A stretch of DNA of 64,000 nucleotides, from NCBI RefSeq assembly GCF_009936275.1, contig NZ_AP019797.1, positions 3,083,890-3,147,889 on the forward strand. The letters run 5' to 3'. How positions within the stretch are numbered: the stretch's first letter is position 1; each line of letters begins with the position of its first letter. The notes below the pieces were generated by a model that worked only from the letters and a program-made list of their open reading frames with translations, was not told the DNA's origin and did no database searches. The stretch is from Rhodothermus marinus. Its GTDB lineage: Bacteria; Bacteroidota; Rhodothermia; Rhodothermales; Rhodothermaceae. Below are positions 30,954-37,757 of this stretch, piece by piece. A program made the translations under genes and the position numbers.

Positions 30954-31625
30954 TCAAGACTTTAAGGCTTTTAATCTTTGAATTTCTTCTTCAATCTTTC
31001 CAATAATATCAGGGTTGTAGATTTCTTTTCGACCATCTCTTTTTATTGAGAATATGATAAAAACTTTTCCTCCGTATTTCTTCTCAAAGTCAACATGAGT
31101 CCTACTAAGCCAATCTTTCCATTTATATAACTCAGGAGTCTGCTCATAAGTGATAGGCTTGATTTGCAATCCTATATACTTATCATTAACTTTAATATAA
31201 AAGTCCACATTATACAGTCTATCCCACTCGTCAGGAGCTGGTTCAATTTTGACACTCAATCTATGCTGCAATTCTTCATAAACAGTGCGTTTTTCTGTAA
31301 TATACCCGTCATAAGTGCGATTAATTACAAGATTATAAATATATTGAACACAGTCATATTCAGTTACATCTTCGACTTCGGCGTGAATAACTTCAGTAAT
31401 TTTTACGAAAAGGATTTTACCGAGACTTTCTACATATTCTTCTGGAGACAAATTTATTCCTTTTTCTTCCAGAAATCTTTTTAGTTTGTCATAATAATAA
31501 CCTTCCCAATCTTCAATAGATTTCGGATCACATTCACGAATCCATTGAGATACAGGGCCAACCCTATCCTTTTTGTTTAGACCCCATCTATTAGTTGCTA
31601 CGTTTAATATCCATTCCTTAGCCAT
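30954..31625 (-). CDS. Type II restriction endonuclease, MjaI-like
   Basis: A 223-residue protein that resembles the MjaI restriction endonuclease family (CTAG specificity in MjaI). The N-terminus (KEWILNVATNRWGLNKKD, RVGPVSQWIREC) is the most family-like part. A possible PD-(D/E)XK core is NVDFYIKVNDKYIGLQIKPIT, with D at about 141 and the QIK segment at about 154. Base composition is strikingly AT-rich compared with the neighbours. It follows its methyltransferase by 3 bases, and both point to recent acquisition. The family call is from memory and unverified. Confidence 0.72.
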   Translation of the reverse strand: MAKEWILNVATNRWGLNKKDRVGPVSQWIRECDPKSIEDWEGYYYDKLKRFLEEKGINLSPEEYVESLGKILFVKITEVIHAEVEDVTEYDCVQYIYNLVINRTYDGYITEKRTVYEELQHRLSVKIEPAPDEWDRLYNVDFYIKVNDKYIGLQIKPITYEQTPELYKWKDWLSRTHVDFEKKYGGKVFIIFSIKRDGRKEIYNPDIIGKIEEEIQRLKALKS

Positions 31626-31628
31626 TTT

Positions 31629-32861
31629 TCACTCTCTTTCTAACTTAATAAATTTATCTTTATACTTGTAATTTTTTATTCTATCAGCTATAGCCATTTT
31701 GTTTTTTATCAAAAAGGCATTTATAAAAATTTTATTTTTAAGATAGACGTAAGCCTCAACCGTATTTCCATTTAAAGCTTTGCCATTATCAAATCTAAGA
31801 AAAATTTCTTTCCCCAAGACTCGTTCTCTTAAATATTTCAAAACTTCATCTTTCTTTACAATTTTTGTACCCAAGAATTTAACATTTAATCCTGTATCTA
31901 CTTGAATTGTTTGTTCATCAATTATACCTGTTACTTTATAAAGCCTATCATTTTTAAAATTAAACTTCTTAGGATCTATTTGAGGTTTAGCATCCTTGAT
32001 TCTCGGAAAATAATTTACTTTCTCAAATTTTTCTTCTATTTCACGTTTAACAATTTGAACATTATCAAATTGCAAAGAACTTTTGCCTAAGCCAATTTTT
32101 TCTTTCATTATACTTATAAACTTGTCGTTTATCTCGTAACCCACAGCATTCCGGCCTAAATTTAGTGCCACCTTAACGGTTGTTCCGCTTCCCAGGAACG
32201 GATCAAGTACAGTGTCATCAACAAAAGAAAACATTTTTATAAGTCGCTTGGGCAATTCATCAGGAAACATTGCTTCGTGTTCTATTTGCCTTGCCCCTCC
32301 AAAATACCAATGTCCCAAGAAATACTCTTTCCACTCTTCTTTACTAAGTTTGGATTTTTCTTTTAAAGTTTGCGCCATCTTATCACTTTTACCAGGCTTT
32401 TTAAATATGAGTATAAATTCATAATCTATTTCAATCATTCCATTTGGAGGATAGGGGTAAGATCCCATCACATTGGCTCCTCCAGTAGTATTCATTGTTG
32501 TCTTCTTTTGCCATATAATTGCACCCATATAATCAAAACCTATCTCTTCACATTGAGCTATAAATTCAGCATGTAACGGTATAATTTTATACCTTCCATA
32601 AATTATAGAACGAGCAAACTGATCTCCGATATTTACACACAATCTTCTTCCTGGTTTAAGAACTCTATAACACTCCTTCCAAACTCGATAAAGATCCTTC
32701 AGATACTCATGGAGGCTTTGCCCGTATCCTATCTGACCAGGGACTCCATAATCCTTAATATGCCAATACGGGGGAGATGTGACAATTAAGTCGATGCTTT
32801 TGTCTTCGACTTCAATCATCTTTCTACTATCGCCGACTATTATTTTAGCCCAGTTTCTCAT
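31629..32861 (-). CDS. Site-specific DNA methyltransferase with C-terminal nuclease-like (SNase-type) domain
   Basis: A 410-residue beta-class DNA methyltransferase, partner of the adjacent endonuclease. The catalytic motif is SPPYW (29-33), usual for N4-cytosine or N6-adenine enzymes, and the SAM motif is DPFLGSGTT (220-228). Residues ~305-400 are extra: VTGIIDEQTIQVDTG, LRERVLGKEIFLRF and AYVYLKNKIFINAFLIKNKMA follow the layout of a staphylococcal-nuclease (OB-fold) domain. The catalytic Arg expected before AYVYL is not seen (NTVEAYVYL), so that domain may only bind DNA. AT-rich throughout. Confidence 0.85.
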   Translation of the reverse strand: MRNWAKIIVGDSRKMIEVEDKSIDLIVTSPPYWHIKDYGVPGQIGYGQSLHEYLKDLYRVWKECYRVLKPGRRLCVNIGDQFARSIIYGRYKIIPLHAEFIAQCEEIGFDYMGAIIWQKKTTMNTTGGANVMGSYPYPPNGMIEIDYEFILIFKKPGKSDKMAQTLKEKSKLSKEEWKEYFLGHWYFGGARQIEHEAMFPDELPKRLIKMFSFVDDTVLDPFLGSGTTVKVALNLGRNAVGYEINDKFISIMKEKIGLGKSSLQFDNVQIVKREIEEKFEKVNYFPRIKDAKPQIDPKKFNFKNDRLYKVTGIIDEQTIQVDTGLNVKFLGTKIVKKDEVLKYLRERVLGKEIFLRFDNGKALNGNTVEAYVYLKNKIFINAFLIKNKMAIADRIKNYKYKDKFIKLERE

Positions 32862-33997: not shown

Positions 33998-34138
33998 TAT
34001 CGCTGTGCATTGTTTCCGATTGCTCCGGCAATTTCCCTCGTCGTGGTGACATCTGTCTGTCACCGGATCCAGACGCGCTGCACCGGCCCGCACGCCATGC
34101 AAAGCGGGCCATTGATTTTTTCAATCGAATCCTGAAAT

Positions 34139-34210
34139 CGCTTTCTAAAAATTAACTTCGTAAAAATCTTAACCTCAGTTATTGACAAGAAAAAATTATT
34201 TTGCTAAATA
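34139..34210 (+). promoter_or_regulatory. Promoter and upstream element of the first ammonium transporter gene
   Basis: A sigma-70-like promoter: TTGACA at 34182-34187 and TAAATA at 34205-34210, spacer 17. A 20-base AT-rich block (CGCTTTCTAAAAATTAACTT) lies at 34139-34158. The same three parts occur with identical spacing before the second transporter gene. A GGTGACA/TGTCACC palindrome lies at 34045-34064 further upstream. Confidence 0.75.
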
Positions 34211-34258: not shown

Positions 34259-35644
34259 ATGAGGACCACTCGACGCTACGCGCACGGGCTTCTGCTGACC
34301 GCTCTGGGGCTTTTGCTGGCCTCGCCGGTGCTGGCGGCCGATCCCTCGGGGAAGGCGACGCTGGAAGCCGACCCGACCGCTCCGGCGAATTTCGTCTGGG
34401 TGCTGGTAGCCGCCTTCCTGGTCTTCTTCATGCAGCCGGGCTTTGCCCTGCTGGAGGCCGGCCTGACCCGGGCCAAAAACACGGTAAACATCCTCACGAA
34501 GAACGTGCTGGACTTCTGCATGGCGGCGCTGGCCTTCTGGGCCTTCGGCTATGCGCTGATGTTCGGCGGTTCGGGCATGGCGCCGGGACTGGAGCAGGGC
34601 AACCCGTTCATCGGCTACTCGGGCTTTTTCCTGACCGGTGAAGCCTACGACGTCAGCACGATCCTGTACTGGCTGTTCCAGATGGTCTTTGCCGCCACGG
34701 CTGCCACCATCGTCTCCGGGGCCATGGCCGAGCGGACGAAGGTGACGGCCTACCTGGCCTATTCTTTCCTGGTCAGCGCCCTCATTTATCCGATCTACGG
34801 ACACTGGGTCTGGGGCAGCGGCTGGCTTGGCGAGATGGGCGCGGTGGACTTCGCCGGTTCGGGCGTGGTGCATGCCGTCGGCGGCATCCTTGCCCTGATC
34901 GGCGCCAAAAAACTGGGGCCGCGCATCGGCAAGTACGATGAGCAGGGACGTCCCCGCCCCATTCCGGGGCACAACCTGGCGCTGGCCACGCTGGGCGTCT
35001 TCATTCTTTTCTTCGGCTGGTTCGGCTTCAATGCAGGAAGCACGGTGGCGGCTACCGAACTGCGCATCTCGGTGATCGCCACCAACACAGCGCTGGCGGC
35101 TGTGGCCGGGGGTGTGGCGGCCATGTACCTGACCATGATCCGCACCGGCCACGTCGATCTGCTGGCCACGTGCAACGGCATCCTGGCCGGTCTGGTGGCC
35201 ATCACGGCCCCCTGCGCCTTCGTGGCCCCCTGGGCGGCCGTGGTCATCGGCGCGCTCGGTGGTGTGGTCATGCTCTGGGCCGTGCACTTCGTCGAGCACA
35301 AGCTGAAAATCGACGACCCCGTGGGCGCCTTCGCCGTGCACGGAGCGGCCGGTCTGTTCGGGGTGCTGGCCGTGGGCATCTTTGCCGACGGCACCTACGG
35401 CGTCAGCGGCCTGATCGTGGGCGACACGCACCAGCTACTGGTCCAGCTCATCAGCATCGTGGCGCTGGTCCTGTGGACGAGCCTCACCGGATGGCTGCTC
35501 TTCACGCTGCTGGACAAGACGATGGGCCTGCGCGTCAGCCGCGAGCACGAACTGGCCGGGCTCGACGTGACCGAGCACGGCGTCTCGGCCTACGTCTTCG
35601 AAAACGGTCTGGCCGAAAAGCCGGGCAAAATGGTCGGGGCCTGA
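34259..35644 (+). CDS. amt: Ammonium transporter (first copy)
   Basis: A 461-residue Amt/MEP-family channel that takes up ammonium. A signal peptide (about 1-26, ending VLA-A) precedes 11 membrane helices, as in many Amt proteins. The twin histidines of the pore appear in VVHAVGG and AVHGAAG. A strong ribosome site (AAGTAAGGAG) precedes the ATG. The C-terminal tail (GLDVTEHGVSAYVFENG) carries the conserved helix that binds PII in AmtB. It is the first gene of a nitrogen cluster with a small peptide, a second Amt and PII. Confidence 0.95.
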   Translation: MRTTRRYAHGLLLTALGLLLASPVLAADPSGKATLEADPTAPANFVWVLVAAFLVFFMQPGFALLEAGLTRAKNTVNILTKNVLDFCMAALAFWAFGYALMFGGSGMAPGLEQGNPFIGYSGFFLTGEAYDVSTILYWLFQMVFAATAATIVSGAMAERTKVTAYLAYSFLVSALIYPIYGHWVWGSGWLGEMGAVDFAGSGVVHAVGGILALIGAKKLGPRIGKYDEQGRPRPIPGHNLALATLGVFILFFGWFGFNAGSTVAATELRISVIATNTALAAVAGGVAAMYLTMIRTGHVDLLATCNGILAGLVAITAPCAFVAPWAAVVIGALGGVVMLWAVHFVEHKLKIDDPVGAFAVHGAAGLFGVLAVGIFADGTYGVSGLIVGDTHQLLVQLISIVALVLWTSLTGWLLFTLLDKTMGLRVSREHELAGLDVTEHGVSAYVFENGLAEKPGKMVGA

Positions 35645-35708
35645 TCATCCAGAAATCCGCAATAGATCGAACGCCAACCCGTAACCAACCCAAACAGGAG
35701 GTAGCATC

Positions 35709-35795
35709 ATGGACGTTGTGCTTGGCGCGCTATCCTTCGTGGTCATGGCCGGCATGTGGATCGTCGGTCCTCAGATCTTTCTGAAAAAGAAATAA
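35709..35795 (+). CDS. 28-residue single-span membrane peptide in the ammonium cluster
   Basis: A short ORF with an excellent ribosome site (CAGGAGGTAGCATC before ATG). It encodes a hydrophobic helix (LGALSFVVMAGMWIVG, residues about 5-20) with a Lys-rich C-terminus (FLKKK), so it should insert with the C-terminus in the cytoplasm. It lies 64 bases after the first amt gene and 45 bases before a terminator, so it belongs to the amt transcript. I recognise no family. A role as an Amt accessory subunit is inferred from position only. Confidence 0.65.
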   Translation: MDVVLGALSFVVMAGMWIVGPQIFLKKK

Positions 35796-35839: not shown

Positions 35840-35874
35840 GGCGTCGCTGCCCACAGGCGGCGACGCCTTTTTTT
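35840..35874 (+). terminator. Intrinsic terminator after the first amt unit
   Basis: An 8-bp stem GGCGTCGC/GCGACGCC (35840-35847 and 35860-35867) is followed by seven T residues. It separates the amt-peptide transcript from the second amt promoter. Confidence 0.88.
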
Positions 35875-35894
35875 ATTAAGTCAGGTACCAGAAG

Positions 35895-35966
35895 CGCTTT
35901 CTAAAAATTAACTTATACAATTGAGTTGTTTAAGTTATTGACTTTCCAAATCAGAATTCCTAAATA
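35895..35966 (+). promoter_or_regulatory. Promoter and upstream element of the second ammonium transporter gene
   Basis: TTGACT at 35938-35943 and TAAATA at 35961-35966 with a 17-base spacer. The same 20-base block as before the first amt lies at 35895-35914. The block-to-promoter spacing is identical in both copies, although the sequence between them differs, which argues for a shared regulator site. Confidence 0.75.
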
Positions 35967-36012: not shown

Positions 36013-37377
36013 ATGCGACTTCGATTTGCACTGCTGCCTGCGCCGCTCCTGCTGGCGCTTCCGGCCCGGGCTCAGGACGCCACCTCGGCCGTCCTCTCGG
36101 GCGGCGACACGGCCTGGATGCTGGTCTCCACGGCACTGGTCCTGCTCATGACGCCCGCGCTGGCCTTTTTCTACGGGGGCCTGGTGCGTGCCAAAAACGC
36201 GCTCAACACAATGATGATGAGCTTCATCGCGCTGGGCGTTTCGGGCGTGCTCTGGGCCCTGCTGGGCTACTCGCTGGCCTTCGGCGAAGGCTCGGCCTGG
36301 ATGGGCGATCTATCGATGGCGCTGCTGCGCGGCGTGGGTCTGGAAGCCAGCGGAAGCATTCCGCACCTGCTGTTCATGGCCTTCCAGGGCACCTTCGCCA
36401 TCATCACGGCCGCGCTGATCTCCGGCGCCATCGTCGAGCGCATGCAGTTCAAAGCGTACCTCTGGTTCATCGCGCTGTGGGGGCTGCTCGTCTATGCGCC
36501 GGTGGCGCACTGGGTCTGGGGCGGCGGCTGGCTGGCCGACCTGGGCGCGCTGGACTTTGCCGGCGGGGCCGTCGTGCACGTGAACGCGGCGGCCGCGGCC
36601 ATTGCAGCCGTGCTCTTTCTGGGTCCCCGGAAGGACTACGGCCGCCAGGCCATGCTGCCGCACAACGTGCCGTTCGTCCTGCTGGGTGCCGGCCTGCTGT
36701 GGTTCGGCTGGTTCGGCTTCAACGGCGGAAGCGCCCTGGCCGCCGGCGAAAGCGCCGCGCTGGCCTTCGTGAACACCATGCTGGCGCCGGCCGCCACACT
36801 GCTGGTGTGGACGCTGCTGGACCTCGGGCGCGAGGGCAAGGTGACGGCCGTCGGTGCAGCCACGGCCATCGTCGTGGGCCTGGTGGCCATCACGCCGGCT
36901 GCCGGCTTCATCGCTCCCTGGGCTGCGCTGCTGCTGGGCGCTATCTCGGCGCTGCCCAGCTACTTCGCCATCCTGTGGCGGCCGCGCACCCGGTTTGACG
37001 ATTCGCTGGACGTGTTCGCCGCGCACGGCCTTGGCGGCATTACCGGCGCCCTGCTGACCGGGGTCTTCGCCCAGACGAGCTGGGGCGGCACCGACGGCCT
37101 GCTGTTCGGCAATCCCGGCCAGTTCGTGGCCCAGCTCGTATCGGTACTGGCTGTGCTGCTCTACAGCGGCGTCGTCTCCTACCTCATTCTGAAGGCCCTC
37201 AGCCTGTTCATGCCGGTTCGTACCATAGCCCGCGCCGAAGCCGTCGGGCTCGACGTGGTCCTCCACGGCGAAGAGGCCTACACCGACGGCGAGGGTGCCA
37301 TCCTGCTCCTGGAGCATGAGCGGGCCAACGGAACGGTGCCGGCCCCTGCGCCCCAGCCTCATCCGGCAACTTCCTGA
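36013..37377 (+). CDS. amt: Ammonium transporter (second copy)
   Basis: A 454-residue Amt-family channel, clearly diverged from the first copy. It has a signal peptide (about 1-20, ARA-Q), 11 predicted membrane helices and the pore histidines in VVHVNAAAA and AAHGLGG. The C-terminus contains the cytoplasmic GLDVVLHGEEAY helix and a Pro-rich tail. The ribosome site AAGGTG precedes the ATG. PII follows after 20 bases, the classical amtB-glnK pairing. Confidence 0.95.
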   Translation: MRLRFALLPAPLLLALPARAQDATSAVLSGGDTAWMLVSTALVLLMTPALAFFYGGLVRAKNALNTMMMSFIALGVSGVLWALLGYSLAFGEGSAWMGDLSMALLRGVGLEASGSIPHLLFMAFQGTFAIITAALISGAIVERMQFKAYLWFIALWGLLVYAPVAHWVWGGGWLADLGALDFAGGAVVHVNAAAAAIAAVLFLGPRKDYGRQAMLPHNVPFVLLGAGLLWFGWFGFNGGSALAAGESAALAFVNTMLAPAATLLVWTLLDLGREGKVTAVGAATAIVVGLVAITPAAGFIAPWAALLLGAISALPSYFAILWRPRTRFDDSLDVFAAHGLGGITGALLTGVFAQTSWGGTDGLLFGNPGQFVAQLVSVLAVLLYSGVVSYLILKALSLFMPVRTIARAEAVGLDVVLHGEEAYTDGEGAILLLEHERANGTVPAPAPQPHPATS

Positions 37378-37397: not shown

Positions 37398-37757
37398 ATG
37401 AAACTGATCCGCGCCATCGTTCGCCCCGAGAAGCTCGGCGACGTGCTCAAGGCTCTCTTTCAGGCCGAGGTGCACGGCCTGACGGTCACGCACGTCAAGG
37501 GTCACGGCGGCGAGACCGACCTGGTAGAGACCTACCGGGGCACCACGGTCAAAATGGAACTGCACGACAAGGTCATGCTCGACATCGGCGTCTCGGACCA
37601 CTTCGTCGAACCCACCGTGCAGGCCATCCTCCAGTCGGCCCGCACCGGCGAAGTAGGCGACGGCAAGATCTTCGTGATCCCCGTCGAGAAAATCTACCGC
37701 ATCCGCACAGGCGAGGAAGACGAAGCGGCCGTCACGCCGGTCACCGTGACCTCCTGA
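37398..37757 (+). CDS. glnK: Nitrogen regulatory protein PII (GlnB/GlnK family)
   Basis: A trimeric sensor of 2-oxoglutarate and ATP/ADP that plugs ammonium channels. The 119 residues align without gaps to E. coli GlnB: PxKLxDV start, T-loop ETYRGTTVK (44-52), GDGKIFV and the RTGEED C-loop. Position 51, the Tyr that is uridylylated in proteobacteria, is Val here, while Tyr46 is kept and position 49 is Thr. Regulation by uridylylation is therefore unlikely. It is co-transcribed with the second amt. Confidence 0.95.
   Translation: MKLIRAIVRPEKLGDVLKALFQAEVHGLTVTHVKGHGGETDLVETYRGTTVKMELHDKVMLDIGVSDHFVEPTVQAILQSARTGEVGDGKIFVIPVEKIYRIRTGEEDEAAVTPVTVTS

Follow-up and report, generated by a model that had tools for sequence, protein, structure and literature searches.

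A 28-residue membrane peptide encoded beside ammonium transporter genes of Rhodothermus and Chloroflexota, a candidate accessory subunit

Results

The amt locus of Rhodothermus marinus

The window analyzed here is a 64,000-nt stretch of the Rhodothermus marinus genome (contig NZ_AP019797.1, positions 3,083,890 to 3,147,889), which carries two ammonium transporter (amt) genes with a very short open reading frame (ORF) between them. The features of this locus are as follows:

34136-34158, + strand: 23-nt block 5' of amt1, first of two copies
34259-35644, + strand: amt1, Chloroflexota-type ammonium transporter of 461 aa and partner gene of the peptide (TIGR00836, best relative 81% identical, tree)
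35696-35701, + strand: Shine-Dalgarno sequence AGGAGG, 7 nt 5' of the ATG (GGAGG kept in genomes G002 and G004)
35709-35795, + strand: 28-aa single-span membrane peptide of the F-x6-W-x3-P family (ORF, conservation, profile)
35840-35867, + strand: rho-independent terminator, a 12-pair stem followed by T7, closing the amt1-peptide unit (hairpin kept in G002)
35892-35914, + strand: 23-nt block 5' of amt2, second copy (copies 96% identical)
36013-37377, + strand: amt2, a different Amt type (35% identical to amt1), outside the unit of the peptide
37398-37757, + strand: PII (GlnK-like) protein, 3' of amt2 (NF008111, 102 bits, under the equivalog cutoff of 202)

Amt1 belongs to TIGR00836, scoring 463.5 bits against a curated cutoff of 343.3. 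The short ORF translates as MDVVLGALSFVVMAGMWIVGPQIFLKKK (28 codons from an ATG), and both its near-ideal AGGAGG site with one hydrophobic helix and its place between the first amt gene and the terminator of that gene, as reported in an earlier note made from the sequence alone, were confirmed. It begins 64 nt past the amt1 stop, which ends at 35644, and since the strong terminator comes after it, the peptide gene is the last of the amt1 unit. This hairpin is retained in G002 despite changed bases; a sub-threshold match to Rfam BjrC68 over the terminator was the only Rfam match, and was taken as chance. The amt2 and PII genes have their own upstream region, separate from the amt1-peptide unit. 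The 23-nt block has the core CGCTTTCTAAAAATTAACTT, followed in both copies by AGTTATTGAC and CTAAATA, and is probably a shared promoter or nitrogen-regulator site of the two amt genes. Elsewhere in the window, a DNA methyltransferase-like ORF (31629-32861, - strand) lies beside a second ORF (30954-31625, - strand) in AT-rich sequence, possibly a restriction-modification pair.

A coding gene under selection

The peptide ORF is a real coding gene under selection. Its DNA is 94% identical to that of G002, with five substitutions that are all synonymous (chance ~6e-4), and the sole indel between the two is one in-frame Lys codon added just before the stop. For the same pair of genomes, amt1 is 87% identical at the DNA level, with 54 nonsynonymous vs. 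126 synonymous changed bases. Conservation of the reading frame and start codon in relatives had been named beforehand as the test of this gene, and the synonymous-only changes in G002 bear it out. In addition, when the amt1-amt2 gap was shuffled 3000 times with dinucleotides preserved, no shuffle produced an SD-preceded ORF of 20-60 aa with a comparable hydrophobic segment.

Distribution in Rhodothermus and origin of the amt1-peptide pair

A full amt1 is present in three of seven Rhodothermus genomes, and the peptide is found in the same three (3/3); the remaining four are without the peptide, one of them matching amt1 over a short fragment only. Across 99 genomes (that of the window and its relatives), the peptide was detected only in the three Rhodothermus with a full amt1 (weak matches with E 0.1-2 were not counted as homologues), and it was not found after the amt genes of other Rhodothermota. 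The expectation that the same peptide would follow amt in relatives was thus met in Rhodothermus with a full amt1 and beside homologous amt genes of Chloroflexota (see below), but failed for other Rhodothermota. No second amt match was obtained in G002, which keeps the peptide; the peptide therefore accompanies amt1 rather than amt2. The unit varies within the genus, three Rhodothermus genomes (G001, G003, G005) being without amt1 and the peptide and having only the second Amt type.

Outside the genus, the closest Amt1 relatives are from Chloroflexota, the best being 81% identical and from an Ardenticatenaceae MAG. In the Amt tree, Rhodothermus Amt1 groups with the Ardenticatenaceae MAG (support 97/86), genome G200 being the next to join. 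Since Rhodothermus Amt1 falls with Chloroflexota, the amt1-peptide pair was probably acquired from this phylum as a unit by horizontal transfer.

A peptide family beside amt genes

Among the best 80 relatives of Amt1, which we scanned for peptides adjoining amt, peptides of 26-46 aa with the same helix lie downstream of amt at 14 loci and upstream at nine others, and four further loci carry a fused form. Overall, the homologous peptides of this type 1 family measure 26-55 aa and come from Anaerolineae, Dehalococcoidia and SAR202, with some copies unlinked or in tandem. Across 36 members, F10 and P21 never vary and W17 hardly does (W/F at this position), which defines an F-x6-W-x3-P motif; family members carry this motif and are encoded either beside amt or in a genome with that Amt clade. 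The window peptide has F10, W17 and P21, and its gene adjoins amt1. Conservation along the peptide peaks at 100 degrees per residue, the period of an alpha helix (permutation p 0.045), which places F10, F14, W17 and P21 on one helix face. The C-terminal tail is basic in most type 1 members, with variable length and charge: the Lys-rich end pointed out in the earlier note is real in the window peptide, but does not define the family, as the tail varies while the F, W and P of the helix are constant. Several amt-peptide loci (e.g., L044 and L214) have no adjoining glnK, and in these two Chloroflexota loci the amt and peptide genes are followed by a convergent gene, which leaves the peptide no same-strand partner on that side other than amt.

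To relate the peptide to its transporter, a peptide-only profile (cut at E <= 1e-5) and Amt1 were each searched over the same 400 Chloroflexota genomes. Of the 28 genomes in which Amt1 was close (>=480 bits), 26 had the peptide, vs. 5 of the 372 others (Fisher p ~1e-33, uncorrected for relatedness and hence not a true probability, the genomes being related). The 480-bit cut was set after inspection of the data, and a looser cut of 440 bits gives 26/31. Both genomes with a close Amt1 and no peptide call can be described further: one (G387) has a fused form beside amt (E 1e-3), and the other (G322) is a 1-Mb assembly. In the Amt tree, a single clade of 62 rows (support 90/99) contains every peptide-bearing Amt; its members without the peptide are 20 that form a nested Planctomycete/archaeal group, plus one 1-Mb MAG. 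The label “none” requires three changes on this tree vs. 28.8 when shuffled. At 20 Chloroflexota loci with more remote Amt1-like genes (41-56% identical), searched as a negative control, neither the profile nor the motif had a match. Samples of Actinomycetota, Bacillota and Planctomycetota, phyla inside which there was no positive control, yielded no peptide except in one MAG (G522), which is labelled Actinomycetes, a label that may be wrong. At the level of genome content, these comparisons show an association of the peptide with Amt across two phyla (Chloroflexota and, through Rhodothermus, a second). Separately, in certain anammox bacteria and Planctomycetes related to them (L088, L094, L095, L100, L102), Amt is extended at its C-terminus by ~50 aa, and this added tail finishes with a conserved REKIYSDKLGRWVYA-like stretch.

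A second branch, tandem and unlinked copies

Divergent peptides with the same F, W and P (type 2) lie directly after the other Amt type, following amt2 or amt2-glnK (the latter in L046, L058, L209 and L213), sometimes two in tandem, and several genomes have peptides after both Amt types. Many type 2 tails are neutral or acidic. When a type 2 profile was run on 201 Chloroflexota genomes, all of the further matches examined outside the training set and outside the unlinked clade described below (10/10) adjoined an amt gene; profile matches obtained without using amt thus mostly adjoin amt. The two branches may share ancestry or may have converged on one Amt surface. At L204 (5642-6587), L238, L239 and L253, two or three peptide genes occur in tandem, after amt in the last three and with no amt nearby in L204.

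In one clade (~17 sampled genomes), the peptide is encoded away from amt, and the cases examined adjoin a DUF503-like gene. Seven of these genomes could be tied to an Amt1 locus, i.e., they have both peptide and Amt1, and the unlinked copies beside DUF503 could have another partner. The loci of this clade are L157-L175, L205, L206 and L210, all Chloroflexota.

Fusion to an Amt-linked domain

In six genomes (L047, L048, L062, L077, L200, L201), the gene immediately following amt encodes a protein of 366-424 aa that has the helix at its N-terminus, a fused form that occurs in Thermoflexus-like genomes. The remainder of this protein exists as a separate gene of ~300 aa right after other Chloroflexota amts (L219-L222) or after amt-glnK (L218). 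Examples of this domain, alone or helix-fused, are:

L048, 4336-5526: helix-fused form
L047, 3848-5119: helix-fused form
L200, 2108-3319, - strand: helix-fused form
L218, 1498-2451: domain alone
L220, 1585-2505: domain alone

By eye, the helix-less protein has no N-terminal signal, and it is probably cytoplasmic, which would place the C-terminus of the helix inside the cell. A model of the fused protein (mean pLDDT 78.7, six sequences) comprises a helix at residues 2-20 and a beta-rich repeated domain. The ~300-aa domain has no match in Pfam or NCBIfam, and a PDB fold search with the fused protein gave no confident match, sliding-clamp folds being rejected at TM ~0.1. The clearest hint of a helix that binds Amt, or is recruited to it, comes from this fusion.

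Discussion

Relation to known small proteins

KdpF and CydX are single-span small proteins of the same sort, encoded in the operons of their partners. PII/GlnK proteins, soluble trimers that plug the Amt pore from the cytoplasm, resemble the peptide in being Amt-linked and encoded in the amt operon, but are unrelated to a single-helix peptide. AcrZ, MgtS and MgtU are closer in design (~28-50 aa with a single membrane helix, each serving one transporter or complex), although none is listed for Amt/Rh (PMC10710835) and the peptide has no sequence similarity to curated families: no member of sets A3 and A5 matched a Pfam or NCBIfam family at E<0.01, and a search of PDB sequences gave no match. 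This 2023 review describes many small proteins acting on transporters and, for Amt, only PII proteins (PMC10710835). The small protein sP36 of Methanosarcina mazei, which is found in the cytoplasm when nitrogen is limiting and relocates to the membrane after upshift, does target an Amt (AmtB1), as proposed for the peptide, but by its description is a different protein, a 61-aa hexamer of the cytoplasm rather than 28 residues with a membrane span (PMC10714827). As our literature searches of open-licence papers also found no Amt micropeptide of this kind, we call the peptide family new: a transporter-associated micropeptide, here for Amt.

Proposed role and alternatives

Genome association and fusion together strongly suggest a peptide acting on the transporter, and we consider it reasonably probable that it is an overlooked small integral accessory subunit of a particular ammonium-transporter clade. 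The peptide would be made from the amt1 mRNA and insert as one helix, N-out/C-in, with its Lys-rich C-terminus in the cytoplasm, as suggested by the positive-inside rule and the fusion. It would then pack on Amt1 through one helix face (Gly6, Phe10, Trp17, Pro21) and, once docked, stabilize or tune the transporter; in some lineages, the same helix may anchor a cytoplasmic Amt-associated protein to it. Physical binding, topology and an effect on transport are what we infer here from comparative genomics. Counting against a subunit, many Amts work without such a peptide, including those of the 20 distant loci and the nested Planctomycete/archaeal group. More tentatively, one may speculate that a large Amt clade has a dedicated micropeptide subunit whose helix, in some lineages, tethers an unnamed ~300-aa cytoplasmic protein, giving a PII-independent or additional layer of control.

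The same fusion to a cytoplasmic Amt-linked domain would also suit a peptide that mainly regulates the contact between Amt and PII, its tail lying near the pore exit and altering the docking of PII or of the soluble Amt-associated protein; it would then be a switch and not a constitutive subunit. Several type 2 peptides do follow amt2-glnK, and the tail is basic in most type 1 members; however, this tail varies in length and charge (down to neutral or acidic in many type 2 peptides) while the conserved residues are in the membrane, and many amt-peptide loci (L044 and L214 among them) lack a PII neighbor, so that we regard this reading as unlikely. Rather less probable still is a stability or degradation adaptor akin to MgtR, MgtU and MgtS, controlling turnover of the transporter by FtsH: size and single span are similar to those of such peptides (PMC10710835) and the peptide is co-transcribed with its would-be target, but association with one Amt clade equally fits a dedicated subunit.

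Two other explanations were rejected. That the peptide serves amt2, the gene after it, as a leader peptide or regulatory uORF is very improbable: it lies upstream of amt2 in the window and between two amt genes in L046, L058, L063, L117 and L122, but here a strong terminator and a separate upstream block come before amt2, G002 keeps the peptide with no second amt match, the next gene is convergent in L044 and L214, and the amino acids are conserved, not the frame alone. Although short hydrophobic ORFs are easily found and type I toxins, too, are small with a single span, an ORF arising by chance or a type I toxin-like peptide unrelated to transport deserves next to no weight, being already contradicted by the synonymous-only change, the invariant F and P, the shuffles, the association across two phyla and the fact that the Amt clade predicts the presence of the peptide.

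Significance

A gene too short for most gene finders was validated here through comparative genomics alone, and Rhodothermus offers a cultivable thermophile in which to study its product. The cytoplasmic domain of the fused form points to a way in which ammonium transport could be linked to a new regulator. Many structures exist for Amt/Rh proteins, a textbook case among transporter families. With a conserved partner, structural work and assays on Amts from Chloroflexota and Rhodothermus would be set up differently, since a transporter expressed alone would lack its subunit.
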